Positions 22,122-64,000 of a stretch of DNA of 64,000 bases are shown piece by piece (position 1 is the stretch's first letter; every line of letters starts with the position of its first letter). The stretch covers positions 1-64,000 of the forward strand of contig JAIOAU010000014.1 in the NCBI GenBank assembly GCA_019873655.1, read 5' to 3'. A model generated the notes under the pieces. It made no database searches and was not told where the DNA came from. It was given only the letters and a program-made list of their open reading frames with translations. This DNA is from Chloroflexota bacterium (lineage in GTDB: Bacteria; Chloroflexota; Anaerolineae; Anaerolineales; Villigracilaceae). The translations under genes and the position numbers were made by a program.

Positions 22122-22450
22122 GGCTTTAGAGAAGGGCTATCTGGAAAGCAGGGCGGCAAAGTATCTTGCGCCCTCTTGGCGAATTGGGAATATGCTCTGG
22201 CGCTCTTCGCGCGCCTTGGCGGTTTTCGAGACTTGGCGAATTTGGAATCTCTCTTGGCGTTCTCCGCGCCTTGGCGGTTTTCGAGACTTGGCGAATTTGG
22301 AATCTCTCTTGGCGTTCTCCGCGCCTTGGCGGTTTTCGAGACTTGGCGAATTTGGAATCTCTCTTGGCGTTCTCCGCGCCTTGGCGGTTTTCGAGACTTG
22401 GCGAATTTGGAATCTCTCTTGGCGTTCTCCGCGCCTTGGCGGTTCTTAAA
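22122..22450. repeat. 55-bp tandem array between convergent genes
   Basis: About four exact or near-exact copies of a 55-bp unit begin at 22216, 22271, 22326 and 22381, with a partial fifth at 22436. The unit contains TTGGCGAATTTGGAATCTCT and TTGGCGTTCTCCGCGCCTTG. A diverged copy precedes the array (about 22165-22215). It is the same element as the pair at 4411-4508. All three frames stay open through the array only because the unit lacks stops, so apparent proteins here are artefacts. The stretch holds no gene. Confidence 0.9.
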
Positions 22451-45105: not shown

Positions 45106-45292
45106 GGGAATTGGCGATTTACGATTGAAGATTGACGATTTACGATTGAAGATTGGCGATGATTGTTTTACTGATTTTATCATCAGCGGCCGGGGAATGA
45201 GTAAGAATTATGTTATCAGTCTGTTGGAATCGAATCAACACGCGCCCCGGGCAAGCGCCGGAGCGCGTGAGCGTTGTCTGAGAGGCTGTCTC
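45106..45292. repeat. short GATTGAAGATTG-type repeats and a hairpin
   Basis: From about 45110 to 45166 the words CGATTTACGATTGAAGATTG recur two to three times. The same word family is found inside the GH38 gene at 58303-58338. To the right, 45240-45268 forms an imperfect 11-bp hairpin that may end the aminotransferase transcript. No gene is seen in this gap. Confidence 0.7.
45240..45268 (-). terminator. possible terminator of the class III aminotransferase gene
   Basis: ACGCGCCCCGG and CCGGAGCGCGT pair over 11 bp with one G-T, loop GCAAGCG, about 25 bases after the gene's stop. There is no strong T run. Confidence 0.35.
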
Positions 45293-50194: not shown

Positions 50195-50311
50195 TAAACA
50201 GGTAAACAGGTAGGGCATACCCTTACCTGTTTACCTGCTACCTGTTTACCTGCTACCTGTTTACCTACCACCTGTTTACCTACCACCTGTTTACCTGCTG
50301 CCTGTTTACTC
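50195..50311 (+). repeat. 15-bp tandem repeat and inverted copies between gap and pgk
   Basis: Five 15-bp units (ACCTGTTTACCTGCT or the variant ending ACC) begin at 50225, 50240, 50255, 50270 and 50285, with a partial sixth at 50300. Reverse-complement copies (CAGGTAAACAGG) precede them at about 50200-50215, so a hairpin could form in the gap-pgk mRNA. It ends just before the pgk ribosome-binding site. Confidence 0.85.
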
Positions 50312-55367: not shown

Positions 55368-55392
55368 CTACCCTCCTAATTCTCATTTGTTG

Positions 55393-55436
55393 AACACTGA
55401 CGACTGAACACGAGTAACTGAACACTGATCACTGCC
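55393..55436. repeat. GAACACTGA-type short repeat
   Basis: The word GAACACTGA recurs between the DUF77-type gene and upp, in the pattern of the other short-word repeats of this window. No gene lies in it. Confidence 0.5.
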
Positions 55437-56607: not shown

Positions 56608-59502
56608 TTATGGCAGGAAAACCAGGCTGAGAATCTCGTGTTTCCGGGCGGGCACGGTGACGCTTCCGTCCGCTTCTGGTTTCAGGTCCTCGATTTTTTG
56701 CTCGGATAGATCGACTTTCTCCACCCGTTTGAACGGCCGCCAGGGCTTGACGGTCACGTAGATGTCTTCATTGCCCAGGTTGTAGCCGCGCGCCAGCCAG
56801 CCGCGCTGGTCGGCGGTCTGTTTGACGGCGCTGATCAGGAAGGTGCGCGGGGAGACCTCGATGAAAGAGGCGCTTGCCGTCAGCGGGCCGGGGTGCAGGT
56901 CGGTCGTCGCGGCTCGCAGGGGGACATCGAAGGCGTAAGCCTGCTCGAAGGCCTCGCGCCAGTTGCCCTTGTGGGGAATGACGGCATACTCGAATGCCCA
57001 CTCGCCGATCATCTGCGCGCCGGGCGTTTCGAGCATCGGGCCGGCATGGCCGCGGCGGGTGGAGAAATCGTCCCGCGAAAGCCAGCCGACGCAGCGCAGG
57101 AGGGTCAGGCAGACTTCCGAAGCCTCGACCGCGACCTCCGGCAGGCCGCGGTTGGCGATCATCAGGCCGCGGCGGCCGTCGCTCACGTCGGTGAAGGCGC
57201 GCTGCGGGACCTCGGGCCGGGGCTGTTCGACCCAGGTCTCGTCGTAGGCCGGGACGCCGACCCGCCGCTCGACGACCTCGAAATGGCCGTCGTGTTCGGC
57301 CTTCTCCACCGCGAACGGAGCGGGGAAGTGGACGCGCAGGCGGTGGTCGCGGGCGGCGTTGTTTACCACAGTGCGTATATCCACGCGGGGGACGCCGCTC
57401 GTCAGCGTGACTCGGCAGGTGATTCGGGTGAGGGCGATTTCCTTCGAGCGCGATCGGCGGTCGGGGGTGAGGGCGGCCGGGGTGGGCAGGTCGAGGTCGA
57501 GGGTCAGGGTTTGCTGGACGGGGCCGCGGTCGAGGAAGACGCGACGCAGGCGCGGCGTCACCAGCCGGTCGGCGGCGGGCGGGGCGTAGTTGTACTCGTC
57601 GCCGCAGTCGCCGCCGTCCACGAAGCGGTTCAGGCCGCGGTAGACGTCGCCCGTGGCCTTGTCGGTCAGGGTCAGCGTCCCGTCCTGTTCGGCTTCGACC
57701 GTGAAGAATTCGTTTTCGATGCGGTAGGGCGGGCGAGCGCGGCGCGGACGGGCGGCCAGTTTCTGCACGAAGGGCAGTTTTGCCAGCGGCAAGAGCAGGC
57801 GCGCCAGCGGCGGAATGCGGGCGGGGGCAGACTCGGCGGCCGGACGCGGAGTCAGGTAAAAGGTCTTCCAGCCCAGAGCGGGGACCTGGGGCGCGGCGAA
57901 GGTCAGGCGGGCCTTGTCGGCGGCCACGGCGCGGACGCGGAAGGTCTGGACGGACGGGTCGGCGAGAAGGGCCTCGATTTCGCCGAGGGCGCGTTCCCAG
58001 GCGGCCAGGTCCGGCGGGCGCGTCTCGCTGACGCGGGCGGTCAGGTGGACGGTCGCGTCCCGGCGTTCGATTTCGATGCCGAGGATGGCGAGGCCCATCA
58101 CGCGCCCGTCGCGGACGTTGCCGCGGAGATTGCCCAGTTCGGCGGCGGACATTTCGGCGTGAACCAGTTCGCGGCCGCCCAGTCCTTCCATCTGGTACGG
58201 GATGGGATCGCCGGACTCGTCCACGAGGTCGAAGGGCGCGGCGCTTTCGACTTCGACGGTCACGACGTCGGCGCGGGGGAAGGAGAGGGGGTTGAAGACG
58301 ATGATTGAGGATTGAAGATTGGAGATTGAAGATTGAGGCGCAGAGGTATTGATTTGTTGGGCAATGAGGTCGAGGCTCTGGCGGGTGATTTCTTCGCCGA
58401 TTTGTTCGACCTGGTCGAAGCGGACCTCCATCTCTTTGTGAACCTGGTCGATCGAGCAGCCGCAGATGGAGTCGTGCGGATGGCATTGCAGGAGCAACTT
58501 CCAGGCTTCGCGAATCAAGTTGGCAGGTTGGAACGTTTGAACGTTTGAACGTTTGAGCATGTCAACTTGTAAACTTGCAAACGTACTGAACGGTTCGGCC
58601 CATTTTTCGAGCAGGGTTTCGCAGGCGTGGTTGCGCTGTTTGATCCACATGCGGGTCGAGAGGACGCCGGGCAGCAGATGGTGGCGCTTGGGGCTGCGCA
58701 GTTCGCCGACGACGGTTGGGACGTATTTGCCCAGCAGGGCGGCCTGGACGGCGGTGAGGTAGTCGGTCAGCGTGGAATGAATCAGGTGGTCGCCGTCCAG
58801 TTTGCCTTCGGCGGCGGCGATGGCCTGGGGCAGGTCGAACGGCGGCTCCATGTGGTCGGTGCCGTGCATGAGCAGGAGGTGCGGGGCGGCGGCGTGCGGC
58901 CTCAGGCTGTCGCGCAGGCGGCGCACTTCGGCGATGAACTTTTCCGGGTCGGAGGTGGGCAGGCCGGCGGCGTTGTCGTATCCGTCGCGCAGATAGGCGG
59001 TGAAGACCCTCGATCCATCGGGGGCTTCCCACCAGAGTTCGACCGGTTCATCGGCCAGGCCGCGCCGGAACGCCGCCGTTTGGATTCCGAAGCCGCGCAG
59101 AATTTGCGGCATCTGGCCGATGTGGCCGAAGGGGTCGGGGATGTAGCCGACGCGCATCTTCGGCCCGAAGCGGCGGCAGACCTGTTCCCCCTCCAGCAGG
59201 TTGCGAATCGTCGCTTCCGGGCTGACCAGGAATTCGTCGGGCAGGATGTACCAGGGGCCGATGATTAACCGTCCGCTGCGCACCAGGCTGCGGATGGTCT
59301 CTTCCCGCTCGGGGCGCATCTGCAGATAATCTTCCAGGACGATGGCCTGGCCGTCGAGCATGAAAAAGCGAAATTGTTGGCTGGTTTCCATCTCGCTCAG
59401 CAGACCGTCGACAAGATGGACCAGCCTCAGGCGGAACTGTTGGAAGGTGCGGTACCATTCGCGGTCCCAATGGGTGTGGGAGATGAGGTGGAGGGTGGTC
59501 AT
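56608..59502 (-). CDS. GH38 alpha-mannosidase
   Basis: This protein has 964 residues. The GH38 metal-binding N-terminus is ISHTHWDREWYRTFQQFRLR (H9, H11, D13), and the nucleophile Asp is in YIPDPFGHIGQMP. The middle domain and the C-terminal beta domains follow to FLP at the end. It should act on alpha-mannosides and has no signal peptide. Two short repeats lie inside the gene in frame, encoding about residues 307-326 and 389-400. These positions are after the catalytic domain, where loops tolerate insertion. The start at 59502 was chosen by the family N-terminus. Confidence 0.9.
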   Translation of the reverse strand: MTTLHLISHTHWDREWYRTFQQFRLRLVHLVDGLLSEMETSQQFRFFMLDGQAIVLEDYLQMRPEREETIRSLVRSGRLIIGPWYILPDEFLVSPEATIRNLLEGEQVCRRFGPKMRVGYIPDPFGHIGQMPQILRGFGIQTAAFRRGLADEPVELWWEAPDGSRVFTAYLRDGYDNAAGLPTSDPEKFIAEVRRLRDSLRPHAAAPHLLLMHGTDHMEPPFDLPQAIAAAEGKLDGDHLIHSTLTDYLTAVQAALLGKYVPTVVGELRSPKRHHLLPGVLSTRMWIKQRNHACETLLEKWAEPFSTFASLQVDMLKRSNVQTFQPANLIREAWKLLLQCHPHDSICGCSIDQVHKEMEVRFDQVEQIGEEITRQSLDLIAQQINTSAPQSSISNLQSSIIVFNPLSFPRADVVTVEVESAAPFDLVDESGDPIPYQMEGLGGRELVHAEMSAAELGNLRGNVRDGRVMGLAILGIEIERRDATVHLTARVSETRPPDLAAWERALGEIEALLADPSVQTFRVRAVAADKARLTFAAPQVPALGWKTFYLTPRPAAESAPARIPPLARLLLPLAKLPFVQKLAARPRRARPPYRIENEFFTVEAEQDGTLTLTDKATGDVYRGLNRFVDGGDCGDEYNYAPPAADRLVTPRLRRVFLDRGPVQQTLTLDLDLPTPAALTPDRRSRSKEIALTRITCRVTLTSGVPRVDIRTVVNNAARDHRLRVHFPAPFAVEKAEHDGHFEVVERRVGVPAYDETWVEQPRPEVPQRAFTDVSDGRRGLMIANRGLPEVAVEASEVCLTLLRCVGWLSRDDFSTRRGHAGPMLETPGAQMIGEWAFEYAVIPHKGNWREAFEQAYAFDVPLRAATTDLHPGPLTASASFIEVSPRTFLISAVKQTADQRGWLARGYNLGNEDIYVTVKPWRPFKRVEKVDLSEQKIEDLKPEADGSVTVPARKHEILSLVFLP
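58303..58338. repeat. GATTGAAGATTG repeat within the GH38 gene
   Basis: The plus strand reads GATTGAGGATTGAAGATTGG and then repeats the word GATTGAAGATTG. The same words occur between genes at 45110-45166. In the protein the segment is Ser/Asn/Gln-rich (SSISNLQSSI). Confidence 0.85.
58527..58583. repeat. GAACGTTT repeat within the GH38 gene
   Basis: AACGTTTG occurs three times in a row, followed by a CAACTTGTAAACTTGCAAACG stretch. The protein segment is SLQVDMLKRSNVQTFQPANL. The repeat is kept in frame. Confidence 0.8.
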
Positions 59503-59515
59503 GGAGTCTCCTGTT

Positions 59516-59624
59516 TTTTGCCACAGATTAGCACAGATTACACGGATTGAAAGTTTTGCCACAGATTAGCACAGATTACACGGATTGAAAGTTTTGCCAC
59601 AGATTACACAGATTTCACGGATTA
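59516..59624. repeat. 38-bp repeat on the 3' side of the first GxxExxY gene
   Basis: Units beginning near 59520, 59558 and 59596 (period 38) contain TTTTGCCACAGATTAGCACA and ATTACACGGATTGAAAG. Their words are inverted relative to the copies at 60009-60067 on the other side of the gene. Confidence 0.85.
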
Positions 59625-59993
59625 GAGCACCAGGCGGCGGTGTTCGAGGGACTTGCCGCCGAAATTGATGAGCAGGGCTACTTTCTGCCTGGTCGCGGCG
59701 AGGTAGTGGATGGTTTGAGCCGTGTGAGCGTCGGTCAGACTGGAGGCGGCTTTGATTTCCACAATCACCTTGCCGTCAATGATGAAGTCTGCAATGTATT
59801 CGCCGACGAGTTGCTCTTTGTAGAAGACTTGCAGGTGTACCTGTTCCTCGAAGGGAATGCCGCGCAGGCGCAGTTCGTAAGCCAGCGCCTTTTGATAAAC
59901 GGTTTCGAGAAAGCCGCCGCCGAGAATCTTATGCACCTCCATCGCCGCGCCGATGATGGCGTAGGTCAACTCTTTGTACAAAAATTCGGCCAT
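59622..59993 (-). CDS. GxxExxY protein (PD-(D/E)XK-like), copy 1
   Basis: This protein has 123 residues. The name-giving motif is GFLETVY (about 28-34), and a nuclease-like core follows: GEYIADFIIDGKVIVEIKA, where the Asp and ExK fit a PD-(D/E)XK active site. The N-terminus is LTYAIIGAAMEVHKILGGG. No function is established for the family. The start at 59993 follows GGAGG; 60008 is possible. It is nearly the same size and sequence as the gene at 62651-63022 and sits between inverted copies of its own repeat. Confidence 0.9.
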   Translation of the reverse strand: MAEFLYKELTYAIIGAAMEVHKILGGGFLETVYQKALAYELRLRGIPFEEQVHLQVFYKEQLVGEYIADFIIDGKVIVEIKAASSLTDAHTAQTIHYLAATRQKVALLINFGGKSLEHRRLVL

Positions 59994-60008: not shown

Positions 60009-60067
60009 TTCTGTGTAATCTGTGAAATCTGTGGCTCAAAATGTTCTGTGTAATCTGTGAAATCTGT
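60009..60067. repeat. 35-bp repeat on the 5' side of the first GxxExxY gene
   Basis: TTCTGTGTAATCTGTGAAAT begins at 60009 and again at 60044 (period 35), each followed by CTGTGGCT. The reverse complement (CCACAGATTTCACAGATTAC) matches the words at 59516-59624. Confidence 0.85.
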
Positions 60068-60069
60068 GG

Positions 60070-62589
60070 CTACAACTTGACGCGTTCCTCGGTCAATTTC
60101 TTCGCTTCCTCCATTGCCGTCTCGCGGTTGGTGATGGGGAAACGGTCATTCAGTGGGCTGAGACGCGCCCCCAGCGCGCTGGAAGCCCACATCGTCCACG
60201 CCAGCGGGCGGACGAAGCCGGTCAGGCCGGCGGCCAGTTTGAACTCGTCCAGAGTCGCCCGGTCCCAGCCGCCGAAGAGGCCGTAGAAGAACAGGTACAC
60301 GGGGAAGGACGGCAGGACGCCGATGAAGAAGATGAGCACGCTGGAAATCTGGTCGGCCTGCCAGATGAGACCGGTCACCCAGCGCAGGAGCGCCCAGTGG
60401 ACGGCCCCGGCCAGGAGCGGCGCGCCGAGCGACTGCCAGAAGTAGAAGCGCTGCGGGAAGCATAATTTATGGTTGACGAAGTAGGCGACGATGTCCTTGC
60501 TTAGCAGGGCGATGAAATAGGCGATGATGAGACCGGTAATCTGGTAGCGGCCGACCAAAAACAGCGCCAGGATGACGCGCAGGACCTGCTCGCCGAAGAC
60601 CAGCGCTGACTTGAGATAGGGGCGGTTCGAGCCGAGTTGCACCTGGTCGCCGACCCAGGAGGGGTACTGAATCGCGCCCCAGATGGCGAGCGGGATGACG
60701 TAGAGCGCGCCGCGCGCGAACTCCGGCCCCGAGGCGCCGAGGATGAATCGGTCGGCTACGGCCAGCAGCACCGCGCCCAGGAAGGCCGAAATCATCCCGC
60801 CATATTTGTACATCATCACTGAGTAATACTGGCTGAGGATGCGCTTGCCGTTGGAGATGGCTTCCGAGATGGCGGCCATGGCCCCCTCAAAGAGGGTGGC
60901 AATCACCTGAAAGGCGAAGACAAAATTCTGCGCCAGGCCCCAGTTGCCCCAGATTTCAGCGTAGTTGATGAGCCGCGCCTGCGTGATGGCGATCTCGGCG
61001 GCCTGACCGAGCGCCCAGGCAATCGAGCCGAGCATGCCAAAGAAACCGAACTTGAAGCCGGTCTTGATGGTGTCCCAGTCGAAGTGCGCCAGGAACAGGA
61101 CGCGGGCGTTGTAGCCCAGCCGCCGGTACAGGTACAGGCCGAGCAGGAAAGCGCTCAACTCGGCGGCGTAGGCGGCCATCCCCAGGCCGAGCAGTCCGCC
61201 CATTGCGCCGCCCATCGCCGGGTGGCTCTTGCCCCAGGCGTACATCAGGCCGACAAAAATCGGCTGGATGGCCATCGGAATCATGGTCAGGAACACATCC
61301 AGGATACGCGAATAGTCGCCGCGCTGCAGGCCGTTGAACGAGTGGCGCATCACCTGATAGAAGCCGGGGATTTGGATGAACGAGTGGATGATGATGCTCC
61401 AGGCGTAGAGCGCATAGGCCGACCTGGGGGCGACCGTGCTGGCGACCGCCACCACCAGCGCGACCTGCACCGCGCCCGAAAGCGCCTGCCACCAGACGAA
61501 CATCTGTCCGTACTTGATGCCGCGCTTCGGGTCGTGGACGCGGTACTGCGCCAGGAACTTGACGTAGGCCTCGCTCGTCCCCATGTCGAAGAACTGCCAG
61601 GCCAGGGCAAAGAACTGCGTCACCCGCCCCCAGATTCCCAGCGCCTGCGCCGAGGGCAGGATATAGACCGGCAGGATGAGATTCTGGTAGATAATCAGCG
61701 GGATGAACAGGACCAGCCCCATGCCAAGCGCCACCAGGAAGCCCGACAGCGGACGGTGGAAGCCGACCTGCGACCACTCGGTCTGCTCTTCGCGGATCTC
61801 GAACTTGCTCCGGTCGGCGACGATTTGGTCCAGCGCTTCGGGGTGGTTCCGGCTGTAGCGCCGCACCAGCAGGAATACGACCACGACTGTGGTCAATAGA
61901 AGCGCCATGATGACGAACAGAATGTTGCGCTCCCGCGCGTGCGGGACGGGCGAGGCGGGGTAATCGGCAAACGAGAGCGGCGTCCGCCCGGCGGCGCGGG
62001 TGACCAGGTGGTAAATCAGGTAGTTGTAGTAAGCCCAGTCCTGAATTTGCGGATTGACGTCATCCAGGAAGACGTTGAAGACATAGACGCCCGGCCGCGC
62101 CTGCCAGAGCAGCCATTCGCCGGTCTCATAGCCGACCACCAGCGGCTGGACGGAGGAGGACGGCGTATCGACCTGGAAGCGGTCGCGCACCTGGGGCGCG
62201 CCGTTCCAGATGATGTCGCGCGTGACCGAATCCTCCACGTCCAGTTCGATGGGGCTGACGGCCTCGCTGCGCGGCGTCAGGGCGAGGCGGACTCCGGTGA
62301 CGGTCTCCACGTCCGCGGCGGAGAGGCCCGGCCCGAGAATCAGCACCAGACCCGCGCCGCGCTCGATTTGGGCCGCGGCCGCCTGCGGGTCCGGGATGAC
62401 GCCGTTCAGGACGAGGACATCCGCCTGGGCCGGGTCGTCCACGATGGAGAAGCCGGCCAGTCCCAGGGCGGTGGTCACGCTCCCCGCTTCGCCGGCGTAG
62501 TAGACGCGCAGGGTGGAGTCTGCCGAGGCTGGCGAGGCGGAGAGGAGAAGAAGTGTGACGATGAGGAGGGAGAAGATGATTTTTCGCAT
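60070..62589 (-). CDS. large membrane protein: ectodomain plus flippase-like polytopic region
   Basis: This protein has 839 residues with a signal peptide (about 1-22). The exported domain (about 23-225, LRVYYAGEAGSVTTALGLAG) has the strand/helix order of a ThuA or glutamine-amidotransferase-like Rossmann fold with no obvious catalytic Cys. A membrane helix (about 235-260) leads to about 12 more membrane helices (from about 300) that resemble MATE/polysaccharide flippases of the Wzx group. Glycan export is a guess. The start at 62589 lies beside a repeat. It is flanked by both GxxExxY genes. Confidence 0.7.
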   Translation of the reverse strand: MRKIIFSLLIVTLLLLSASPASADSTLRVYYAGEAGSVTTALGLAGFSIVDDPAQADVLVLNGVIPDPQAAAAQIERGAGLVLILGPGLSAADVETVTGVRLALTPRSEAVSPIELDVEDSVTRDIIWNGAPQVRDRFQVDTPSSSVQPLVVGYETGEWLLWQARPGVYVFNVFLDDVNPQIQDWAYYNYLIYHLVTRAAGRTPLSFADYPASPVPHARERNILFVIMALLLTTVVVVFLLVRRYSRNHPEALDQIVADRSKFEIREEQTEWSQVGFHRPLSGFLVALGMGLVLFIPLIIYQNLILPVYILPSAQALGIWGRVTQFFALAWQFFDMGTSEAYVKFLAQYRVHDPKRGIKYGQMFVWWQALSGAVQVALVVAVASTVAPRSAYALYAWSIIIHSFIQIPGFYQVMRHSFNGLQRGDYSRILDVFLTMIPMAIQPIFVGLMYAWGKSHPAMGGAMGGLLGLGMAAYAAELSAFLLGLYLYRRLGYNARVLFLAHFDWDTIKTGFKFGFFGMLGSIAWALGQAAEIAITQARLINYAEIWGNWGLAQNFVFAFQVIATLFEGAMAAISEAISNGKRILSQYYSVMMYKYGGMISAFLGAVLLAVADRFILGASGPEFARGALYVIPLAIWGAIQYPSWVGDQVQLGSNRPYLKSALVFGEQVLRVILALFLVGRYQITGLIIAYFIALLSKDIVAYFVNHKLCFPQRFYFWQSLGAPLLAGAVHWALLRWVTGLIWQADQISSVLIFFIGVLPSFPVYLFFYGLFGGWDRATLDEFKLAAGLTGFVRPLAWTMWASSALGARLSPLNDRFPITNRETAMEEAKKLTEERVKL

Positions 62590-62600
62590 AGAGCCTCTTT

Positions 62601-62633
62601 TTTTGCCACGAATTACACGAATGATACGAATTT
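62601..62633. repeat. single repeat copy on the 3' side of the second GxxExxY gene
   Basis: TTTTGCCACGAATTACACGA and ATGATACGAATTT form one unit. It is in inverted orientation to the array at 63041-63519. Confidence 0.75.
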
Positions 62634-62650
62634 GGATATTGGGCTGCGAA

Positions 62651-63022
62651 TTATTTGACAATCCTTTTCTGCTGGAGGGAGGAACTTCCAAAGTTGAGCA
62701 AAATGGCGAGACGGTAGCCGGTGGCGGCCAGGTAATTGTGAGCCTGGGCTTCGTGCGCCGGGTTCAGTGCCGAGACGGATTTGATTTCCAGAATAATCTT
62801 GCCATCAATCACAAAATCTGCCACATATTCTCCCACCAGGACGCCCTTGTAATGCACCGGCAGGCGGACCTGCTCTTCGAAAGGGATGCCGCGCAATCTC
62901 AATTCATGCGCCAGGGCGGCCTGATACACGGCTTCCAGAAATCCCGGGCCAAGAATTTTGTGCACTTCCATCGCCGCGCCGATGACCGCGTATGACAACT
63001 CTTTGAAAAGGATTTCCACCAT
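62651..63022 (-). CDS. GxxExxY protein (PD-(D/E)XK-like), copy 2
   Basis: This protein has 123 residues and is a close relative of copy 1. The motif is GFLEAVY, the nuclease-like core GEYVADFVIDGKIILEIKS, and the N-terminus is LSYAVIGAAMEVHKILGPG. The start at 63022 has GGAG upstream. The reading frame stays open for hundreds of codons upstream only because it runs through the stop-free repeat array. The upstream transcript would be made almost wholly of that array. Confidence 0.9.
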   Translation of the reverse strand: MVEILFKELSYAVIGAAMEVHKILGPGFLEAVYQAALAHELRLRGIPFEEQVRLPVHYKGVLVGEYVADFVIDGKIILEIKSVSALNPAHEAQAHNYLAATGYRLAILLNFGSSSLQQKRIVK

Positions 63023-63040
63023 TTTGTCTCCAAAAATTTT

Positions 63041-63519
63041 TCGTGTAATTCGTGAAATTCGTGGTCGACCAACAACTTTCGTATAATTCGTGAAATTCGT
63101 GGCCGACCAACAACTTTCGTATAATTCGTGAAATTCGTGGTCGACCAACAACTTTCGTATAATTCGTGAAATTCGTGGTCGACCAACAACTTTCGTATAA
63201 TTCGTGAAATTCGTGGCCGACCAACAACTTTCGTATAATTCGTGAAATTCGTGGCCGACCAACAACTTTCGTATAATTCGTGAAATTCGTGGCCGACCAA
63301 CAACTTTCGTATAATTCGTGAAATTCGTGGCCGACCAACAACTTTCGTATAATTCGTGAAATTCGTGGCTAACCGAAACTTTCGTGTAATTCGTGAAATT
63401 CGTGGCCAACCGAAACTTTCGTGTAATTCGTGAAATTCGTGGCCAACCGAAACTTTCGTGTAATTCGTGAAATTCGTGGCCAACCGAAACTTTCGTGTAA
63501 TTCGTGAAATTCGTGGCTA
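63041..63519. repeat. 480-bp tandem array of 37/38-bp units
   Basis: About eight 38-bp units start at 63073, 63111, 63149, 63187, 63225, 63263, 63301 and 63339, then about four 37-bp units at 63371, 63408, 63445 and 63482. All units share TTCGTGAAATTCGTGG. The first group carries CGACCAACAACTTTCGTATA and the second CCAACCGAAACTTTCGTGTA. The stretch of 494 bases between the two genes holds nothing else. Confidence 0.95.
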
Positions 63520-64000
63520 AACCTCCAATCCATTCTCTTCCATCACCCGCGCAAACCACCGTCCGCTGTCCTTGACGGTGCGCTTCTGCGTCTTGTAGTC
63601 CACATACACCAGCCCGAAACGCTGACCGTAGCCCAGCGCCCACTCGAAGTTGTCCATGAACGACCAGTGGAAGTAACCCTTCACAGGGACGCCGTCCTGG
63701 ATGGCGCGGTGGACCTGGAAGAGATGATTCTTCAGGTAGCGGATGCGGCGCTCGTCGCGGACGCGGCCGTCGAAGTCGAGGCCGTCCGGCACGGGGACGC
63801 CGTTTTCGGTCACCATGAGCGTTGGCGCGGCGTCTTCCCGCGGAGCGAGATAGTCGTTCTGAATCCGCGTCAACAGGGCGTAGAGTCCCTCCGGGAAGAT
63901 TTCCCACATGCCGGAATACTCGTTTCCTTCGGGATGCACCTGCTCCACATTGACAATTGGGATCTTGGACGAATGCTTGATGACGGCGCGCGAGTAGTAG
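63517..64000 (-). CDS. GH1 beta-glucosidase, C-terminal part (window edge)
   Basis: The gene continues past the right edge, so only about 160 C-terminal residues are seen. The nucleophile Glu is in LMVTENGVPVPDG, and the aglycone/sugar-binding WSFMDNFEWALGYGQRFGL is typical of the family. NVEQVHPEGNEYSGMWEIFPEG precedes it and YYSRAVIKHSS is at the edge. It hydrolyses beta-glucosides or related sugars. Its 3' end borders the repeat array directly. Confidence 0.93.
   Translation of the reverse strand, partial: YYSRAVIKHSSKIPIVNVEQVHPEGNEYSGMWEIFPEGLYALLTRIQNDYLAPREDAAPTLMVTENGVPVPDGLDFDGRVRDERRIRYLKNHLFQVHRAIQDGVPVKGYFHWSFMDNFEWALGYGQRFGLVYVDYKTQKRTVKDSGRWFARVMEENGLEV

Follow-up and report, generated by a model that had tools for sequence, protein, structure and literature searches.

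In this work, we ask what ties a small nuclease-family gene to the short repeats surrounding it, and why both gene and repeat differ between two neighbouring copies of the same arrangement. The window, by which we mean the whole analysed stretch of 64,000 nucleotides (Chloroflexota bacterium, assembly GCA_019873655.1, contig JAIOAU010000014.1), contains near its end a GxxExxY gene of the PD-(D/E)XK nuclease family (TIGR04256/PF13366), here called cassette 2 together with its repeats. The gene lies at 62651..63022 on the minus strand, from an ATG at 63022 to a stop at 62651, and encodes a protein of 123 aa with Ser at residue 10, scoring above the curated cut-offs of both TIGR04256 (148 bits, cut-off 35) and PF13366 (143.6 bits, cut-off 22). 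On its 3' side, at about 62601..62635 on the plus strand, is an end unit of three CACGAAT-type 7-bp words at 9-bp spacing (CACGAATTA, CACGAATGA and TACGAATTT), running from outer to inner and matching, in inverted orientation, the array on the other side of the gene. This 5'-side array (63039..63517, minus strand; repeat families D1/D2) holds 13 end units of 37-38 bp, again outer to inner, each composed of CACGAAT, CACGAAT and then CACGAAA or TACGAAA. The paired word recurs 13 times, in eight 38-bp steps followed by four 37-bp steps, with a linker not identical between the two parts; TRF reports a period of 38, 12.7 copies, 97% matches and a score of 811, the highest among the 48 TRF rows of the window. 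The first-pass annotation had described a second GxxExxY cassette with its own repeat word and an inverted array on the 5' side, and profiles, sequence and TRF confirm this. Its estimate of about 12 array units was correct within one; the single copy of the word placed on the 3' side holds as one end unit, which, however, contains three words.

The array is open in reading frames: within 62651-64000 a fused open frame including the nuclease reaches 489 aa, so gene callers may fuse the array to the nuclease gene, or call repetitive proteins of the NFTNYTK/HEFHELHE type. Elsewhere in the same genome (contig C12, L005:1462-3108) PurM-like AIRS domains and a GxxExxY domain form an in-frame fusion, with a linker which, by eye, consists partly of the downstream word array in translation, and several relatives have long open frames (547-571 aa, one of 613 aa) with a similar, weaker family match.

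A sister cassette with the word ACAGATT (59516-~60069), also reported earlier, is borne out by sequence and TRF. This cassette 1 follows the plan of cassette 2, but with CACAGAT words: a 3'-side array of three end units (59516..59624, plus strand; TRF period 38, 2.9 copies), a GxxExxY gene with profile matches and Thr at residue 10 (59622..59990, minus strand), and two 5'-side end units (60009..60069, minus strand). Between the cassettes lies a large host ORF (60070..62589, minus strand), membrane-protein-like by eye and without a Pfam or NCBIfam match at E 0.001. The ends of both cassettes leave no space for a partner gene, the only other frames being those overlapping the nuclease. A third cassette is found just outside the window (contig C14:65007-65351), and the whole genome (3.04 Mb, 45 contigs) contains six family matches, five of them with flanking words by eye and one, on C8, with none. 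The repeat word is not a chance occurrence, since the spaced form CACGAATTNCACGAA is found 34 times in the genome and the backwards pattern never.

Other repeats were noticed in the window. A gene-less tandem array at 22175..22444 (minus strand; 55-bp unit, 4.9 copies) contains words of another class, CGCCAAG and CGCGGAG, of which a single pair is also present at 2053. Tandem 15-bp repeats at 50224-50309 (TACCTGTTTACCTGC), of a word type different from the cassette words, are flanked by ORFs resembling, by eye, glyceraldehyde-3-phosphate dehydrogenase and phosphoglycerate kinase. At 45110-45160, 55391-55434, 58292-58336 and 58527-58582 there are short arrays of words 7-8 bp long (GATTGAA, TGAACAC, TTGAAGA and GTTTGAAC), unlike the 9-bp-spaced cassette words.

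PD-(D/E)XK nucleases are defined by a catalytic D and E-x-K, plus a motif-I glutamate. The cassette 2 protein meets these residue criteria, its nuclease activity being inferred: E30, D69 and E79-x-K81, along with Q93 and Y97, make up an intact site, and in a 97-row alignment D69, K81 and Q93 are invariant, while E30, E79 and Y97 are conserved in at least 90% of the rows. The AlphaFold model, built from the 97-sequence alignment, has a pLDDT of 94.9. Its nearest solved fold is SSO0001 (4ic1; Foldseek E 1.6e-4; VIA Z 10.2, rmsd 4.4 over 100 residues), which we take to be a Cas4, followed by other PD-(D/E)XK folds at Z 6-8; matches to Cas4b profiles are weak (cassette 2, E 0.0014; cassette 1, E 9e-5). 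Cas4 proteins have a four-cysteine iron-sulphur cluster; the cassette 2 protein contains no cysteine, and thus no such cluster. A sequence search of the PDB found no relative, and at E 0.001 only PDDEXK_3 matched in Pfam, with no HUH/Y1 or known transposase domain (NCBIfam also searched). In the model, residues 10, 14 and 18 are four apart on the first helix (2-24), residues 96 and 100 lie on helix 88-101, and residues 112-117 lead into the last strand; we infer that these positions may form a DNA-reading face.

The layout, a gene between inverted word units, is general across many bacterial phyla. The family was found in 27 of 31 genomes of relatives and in 28 of 121 genomes drawn from the phylum (15 of 84 genera), and most of a further 37 genomes, picked for holding it, have several copies. 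Loci were taken from the relatives and the phylum genomes, with 80 more from named genomes of many phyla. Over 167 loci with both flanks, the inverted match between upstream and downstream flanks had a median score of 16, against 8 for flanks of different loci, and 134 loci scored at least 12, against 13 in the mismatched-locus control; 49 of the 167 also score at least 12 in direct orientation, probably owing to arrays and back-to-back units. End units lie on both sides in 124 of the 169 loci of the first set, mainly outer to inner in 117 of the 124, and in 47 of the 69 loci of a new set, outer to inner in 45. The first set left out 45 loci, with units not on both sides or fewer than four units, and one further locus was lost from the tree by protein length. 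The new set started from 118 matches: 48 were removed for sharing 95% identity or more with an earlier match or among themselves, together with one lacking flanks and, subsequently, 22 loci without units on both sides. The general form of the repeat is CRCNRAK plus a 2-bp spacer, with three, sometimes four, words per end; word phase was assigned by fit to this consensus, a choice which in itself biases position 6 towards A and position 5 towards R, and leaves free the choices of A/G at position 5 and T/G at position 7. Identities within elements were set aside, being biased by the choice of units with at most two mismatches.

Among TRF arrays with a period of at least 20, no more than 700 bp from the gene (178 loci), the cassette 2 array has the most copies; in the others, the repeated unit is mostly one end, giving periods of about 30-51 bp, or else an inverted pair, with periods of about 74-101 bp. 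Tandem arrays are common beside the gene, and upstream units often sit just before the start codon. Both neighbours are co-directional in 46 of 68 loci, by a crude ORF caller, a modest preference on which nothing here rests. In the named-phylum loci, the outer end of the cassette is often located at, or within a few bases of, the stop codon of the upstream gene (examples are TAGCCACG, TAACCGCGG and TGAACCACAG). With one query protein at E 1e-5, a search limited to close relatives, the family was found in none of 50,697 phage records and in eight of 72,556 plasmid records, all predicted to be non-mobilizable; one degenerate pattern, run on viral contigs, picked out 14 stretches, none of which proved to be a relative, and this negative is weak. 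Phage or plasmid cargo was set aside, given that close relatives of the one query are absent from the phage records and rare in the plasmid records.

The 60070-62589 gene anchors two intergenic slots in relatives, read in 14 loci; slot 2 is closed on its other side by a GH1 glycosidase gene (63517..64000, minus strand, running off the window; PF00232, E=5e-43). Slot 2 was read in 14 genomes: seven carry cassettes, three carry gene-less inverted pairs (nearly alike in G165 and G173, with another word in G152), one has a decayed gene with a solo end (G115), and three are without a cassette (G002, G017 and G160, the next gene also looking different in G002 and G160). The cassettes have CACGAAT words in G000, G015 and G177, CGCGGAT in G001, G008 and G154, and CACAGAT in G169, that is, three word types at one slot, each with its matching protein. 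The slot-2 protein of G169 resembles the cassette 1 proteins found in slot 1 of G000 and G001 (87-89% identity) more than that of cassette 2 (about 70%), so that a cassette-1-type protein goes with cassette-1-type words. By the anchor gene, G001 is the closest to G000 (90%); in slot 2, however, the protein of G001 shares 94% identity with its G008 counterpart and 75% with its G000 counterpart. Among the nine cassettes found at slots 1 and 2 of seven genomes, Thr10 (residue numbering is that of the cassette 2 protein) occurs with CACAGAT or CGCGGAT (six) and Ser10 with CACGAAT (three), Thr10 thus going with G at base 5 and Ser10 with A. On sequence evidence, whole cassettes do replace one another at the same slot. 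Slot 1 of G015 (L238), the place of cassette 1 in G000, contains one solo CACAGAT-type end, along with a different gene-less inverted element with CGCAAAG/CGCCAAG words.

Presence and absence could also be compared elsewhere. A cassette of G062 is missing from G071, G105 and G128, with flanks 83-95% identical; G136 does not align there. In three genera of two families (loci L081, L101 and L095), similar cassettes are found in unrelated surroundings, with proteins 93-98% identical, DNA 80-83% identical, and a likeness limited to the cassette region and its repeats. The word caller gave no words on both sides for these three loci, and their age is unknown. That the proteins have stayed more alike than their DNA suggests purifying selection at the protein level, and not decay of the gene. 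Paralogues within a genome are mostly divergent, and so give no sign that the gene itself has transposed recently; the exception is Marinilabilia, where three cassettes 90-95% identical lie within 7 kb. No clean empty site was found: aligning close genomes (five for one region, four for a second) yielded one word-bearing indel in mosaic repeats, which is not an empty site, and a pattern search for a larger G020 repeat in empty form had three matches, on the same three contigs as the filled copies. The evidence for movement is indirect, and consists of presence/absence, replacement at slots, similar cassettes in unrelated surroundings and the Marinilabilia paralogues.

Gene-less relatives of the cassettes are scattered in the genomes. 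In the genome under study, solo ends and inverted pairs appear to be intergenic (16 loci, judged by eye without gene calls, L056 being off centre). Over 31 genomes and 74 cassettes, 65 with a word (not every family match was fetched), genomes with a resident CACGAAT cassette have more dispersed CACGAAT pairs than those without (8 vs 23 genomes, p=0.00016), the counts including the cassettes' own units. For the other two words the tie to residents is weak or absent: the exact-word association is p=0.007 (CGCAGAG) and p=0.11 (CACAAAG), and with one mismatch allowed no association with residents was found for either (0.20 and 0.07, respectively). In four genomes, 9-17 CACGAAT sites are present although none of the cassettes fetched is an exact resident.

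One alternative, unlikely as we consider it, is that the words are operators or self-protecting sites of an autoregulatory or addiction system, the dispersed copies acting as decoys, with no movement caused by the cassette's own enzyme. Units placed close before the start codon and arrays beside the gene are what such a system would be expected to feature; end units, however, are also found downstream, in inverted orientation, gene-less inverted pairs lie away from any cassette, and the two cassettes of the window have no room for a partner gene.

The lack of any correlation between protein clade and word had been named beforehand as what would refute a matched pair; a correlation was found on the tree (FastTree, 123 proteins), where word changes were counted and compared to shuffled labels. 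Word position 7 changes 8 times, vs a shuffled mean of 42.5 and a minimum of 32 in 200 shuffles. Changes at position 5 are 20 (mean 39.9, minimum 32), at position 2 they are 27 (mean 39.5, minimum 32) and at position 4 they are 36 (mean 48.2, minimum 41); the whole 7-mer changes 71 times, vs a mean of 99.4 and a minimum of 95 in 100 shuffles. In one clade, all 44 proteins go with words that end in AG (two words irregular), while position 7 is T in 66, G in 10, A in two and C in one of the other 79. Genomes containing both clades (G000, G008, G011 and G025) have both word classes, which argues against a simple host effect.

At the level of single residues, Thr at residue 10 is found in 55 of the 69 proteins with G at word base 5, and in 3 of the 54 with A; Ala, Val or Cys at this residue goes with A in 27 proteins and with G in one, while Ser accompanies either base (18 A and 7 G in the first set, 6 A and 8 G in the new loci). 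Exceptions to the rule "Thr if and only if G" are 17 out of 123, and the covariation is present within both word classes. In 21 disjoint pairs taken from the full tree, over 200 random pairings, Thr went with G in 8-13 and the opposite was never found. When only well-supported branches are used, seven disjoint pairs remain and the sign test for residue 10 is not significant (median p 0.125), on average 4.3 pairs agreeing and 0.0 being opposed; resting on these seven pairs, residue 10 ranks first of 115 columns, with residue 105 close behind (4.31 vs 4.50 agreeing pairs). The 47 new loci replicate the association (G/Thr 13, G/other 8, A/Thr 4, A/other 22; odds ratio 8.9, p=0.0019, uncorrected for kinship), and in them Ala, Val, Cys or Ile at residue 10 is found with A in 16 out of 16; three of the four Thr/A exceptions are poor word calls (AAAAAAA, GAAAAAG and TGACAAG), which were still counted. 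Word position 7 tracks residues 112-117, 96 and 100, a signal mainly due to one deep split (seven disjoint pairs, three on supported branches), and links of residues to word bases 2 and 4 are weak. No word is common to two cassettes of one genome in the 17 genomes with at least two cassettes scored on both sides; pairs being few, this may be due to chance.

The earlier proposal that gene and repeat differ together, as a matched pair of protein and DNA target, is thus supported by covariation; binding itself has not been shown, and the matched pair remains an inference. Within these limits, a match of the word to the protein, apparently to single amino acids, is well supported by the comparisons.

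Further evidence comes from G020, which has 79 CACGAATNNCACGAAT sites and none of the reversed control pattern. Of 20 paired sites fetched from it, 15 share the four-unit end and the outer AT of the resident cassette L072, and the other five have three units and an outer GC. The search required the first two words, the fourth not being used in selection. Over the 30 arms of the 15 elements, the fourth word is conserved at 0.87-1.00 and the shorter third word at 0.67-1.00, compared to 0.40-0.73 for the spacers. The two arms of an element agree at spacer positions in only 0-7 of the 15 elements, whereas at word positions they do so in 11-15, with one exception, the opening base of word three (five of 15). 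What is conserved is therefore the word, and not a hairpin. In an anchored test without selection of units, the spacers were also partly conserved (p8 0.48, p9 0.42), with words at 0.42-0.64 and off-phase positions at 0.12-0.37. The boundaries of these miniature elements are sharp, the flanks being unrelated beyond the outer AT or GC. No target-site duplication longer than 2 bp was seen in the 20 elements, 18 of which have AT/AT or GC/GC as outer dinucleotides; these are self-complementary, so a 2-bp duplication could not be distinguished from the end itself and cannot be excluded. Some insertion sequences and MITEs make no target-site duplication.

These data bear on a second alternative, which we judge improbable: linked inheritance alone, with the words as inert minisatellites travelling with the gene and unrecognised by the protein. 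Adjacent gene and repeats do share descent, and because of this linkage part of the word-protein correlation is descent; moreover, tandem arrays can grow by slippage. Inert repeats, however, would not be expected to keep their words while the 2-bp spacers drift, nor to change base 5 together with residue 10 in disjoint tree pairs and in new loci, nor to preserve, in dispersed gene-less copies, the end architecture of the resident cassette. A third alternative, also improbable, is that inverted pairs are selected as RNA or single-stranded DNA hairpins, as in REP/REPIN, with words serving base pairing: two inverted pairs do fold strongly (z -9.2 and -7.9), but single ends fold no better than dinucleotide shuffles (5 out of 5 tried), and the arms disagree at spacers in 8 to 15 of 15 elements, with words mostly in agreement, which shows that conservation does not act on pairing as such.

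How, then, do the cassettes compare to known systems? In the REPtron (RAYT/TnpA-REP with REP/REPIN repeats), a dedicated enzyme has its own adjacent repeats, and the two are said to co-evolve; its repeats are, as in the cassettes, intergenic, dispersed and often in inverted pairs, and different enzymes of one genome have different repeats (PMC3116915, PMC8266576). The enzyme is a HUH/Y1 transposase there and a PD-(D/E)XK nuclease in the cassette, and the repeat is palindromic there, as opposed to 7-bp words at 9-bp spacing; the cassette, moreover, may be present or absent at a slot, or be replaced there by another. A REPtron-like trait, analogous and not homologous, is the match of dispersed inverted pairs to a resident enzyme, an association clear for one word of three. 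By analogy, the REPtron is the closest known counterpart of the cassette, but enzyme and repeat type differ. A REP palindrome was set aside as a description of the repeats, given that single ends do not fold.

Insertion sequences and MITEs share with the cassettes a single gene between inverted ends, and gene-less miniatures with the same ends; the cassettes, however, lack a known transposase domain, no target-site duplication above 2 bp was seen in the 20 miniature elements, and the cassette ends are iterons varying from cassette to cassette. The protein resembles Cas4/RecB-family nucleases in its best fold match (SSO0001, with other PD-(D/E)XK folds following), in the weak Cas4b matches and in its D, ExK and QxxxY residues, presumably the Cas4/RecB motifs. 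It differs in its length of 123 aa, in the absence of cysteines for an iron-sulphur cluster and in having GxxExxY as motif I; moreover, the cassette holds no other gene, its neighbours being the 60070-62589 ORF and GH1. A CRISPR array was set aside, the array linkers being near identical and not unique spacers. In the two papers found to name TIGR04256 GxxExxY, the passage concerned gives it merely as an annotation and leaves flanking repeats unmentioned (PMC8934634, PMC12085832). No paper linking GxxExxY to repeats was found among open-licence PubMed Central papers, which is not proof of absence.

What the sequences themselves document are the architecture, the catalytic residues, the word-protein covariation, the replacement and presence/absence of cassettes, and gene-less relatives sharing their ends. 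Together, the gene and its repeats have the appearance of a single small selfish unit, with gene-less copies scattered in genomes. The reading that we prefer, and hold to be probable, is that the cassette is a Cas4/RecB-like nuclease matched to its own iteron ends, which probably binds and cuts them, so that the unit and its gene-less derivatives are mobilised; neither binding, nor cutting, nor movement was observed, and all three, including the role of the nuclease in movement, are inferred. Each cassette would constitute one genetic unit, made of the small PD-(D/E)XK nuclease and its inverted iteron ends, the nuclease being matched to its own end word and not to those of paralogues. It would probably bind several copies of the word at each end and cut there; cassette and gene-less derivatives might then be excised, copied or converted into intergenic sites, and repeated processing of one end could give rise to tandem end arrays, such as the one with 13 units. 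The cassette may thus work like a REPtron, with an unrelated enzyme and non-palindromic iterons.

A broader proposal, which we advance only tentatively and would place just short of an even chance, is that GxxExxY cassettes form an undescribed, phylum-spanning class of minimal mobile elements, about 0.5-1 kb long, each with a single Cas4-like nuclease that would recognise its evolvable word of 7 bp by a simple residue-to-base code, residue 10 setting base 5 and the C-terminal residues 112-117 going with base 7. Dozens of distinct word/enzyme pairs would exist among bacteria, several of them together in one genome, each driving its own gene-less repeats.

These observations provide a concrete hypothesis for a widespread family for which no described function was found, and one which also covers the short repeats littering intergenic DNA in some of the genomes bearing it. 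The diversity of word/protein pairs, together with covariation at the level of residues, makes a specificity code testable with a protein of only 123 aa, and may yield small nucleases with readable, multi-copy DNA targets.
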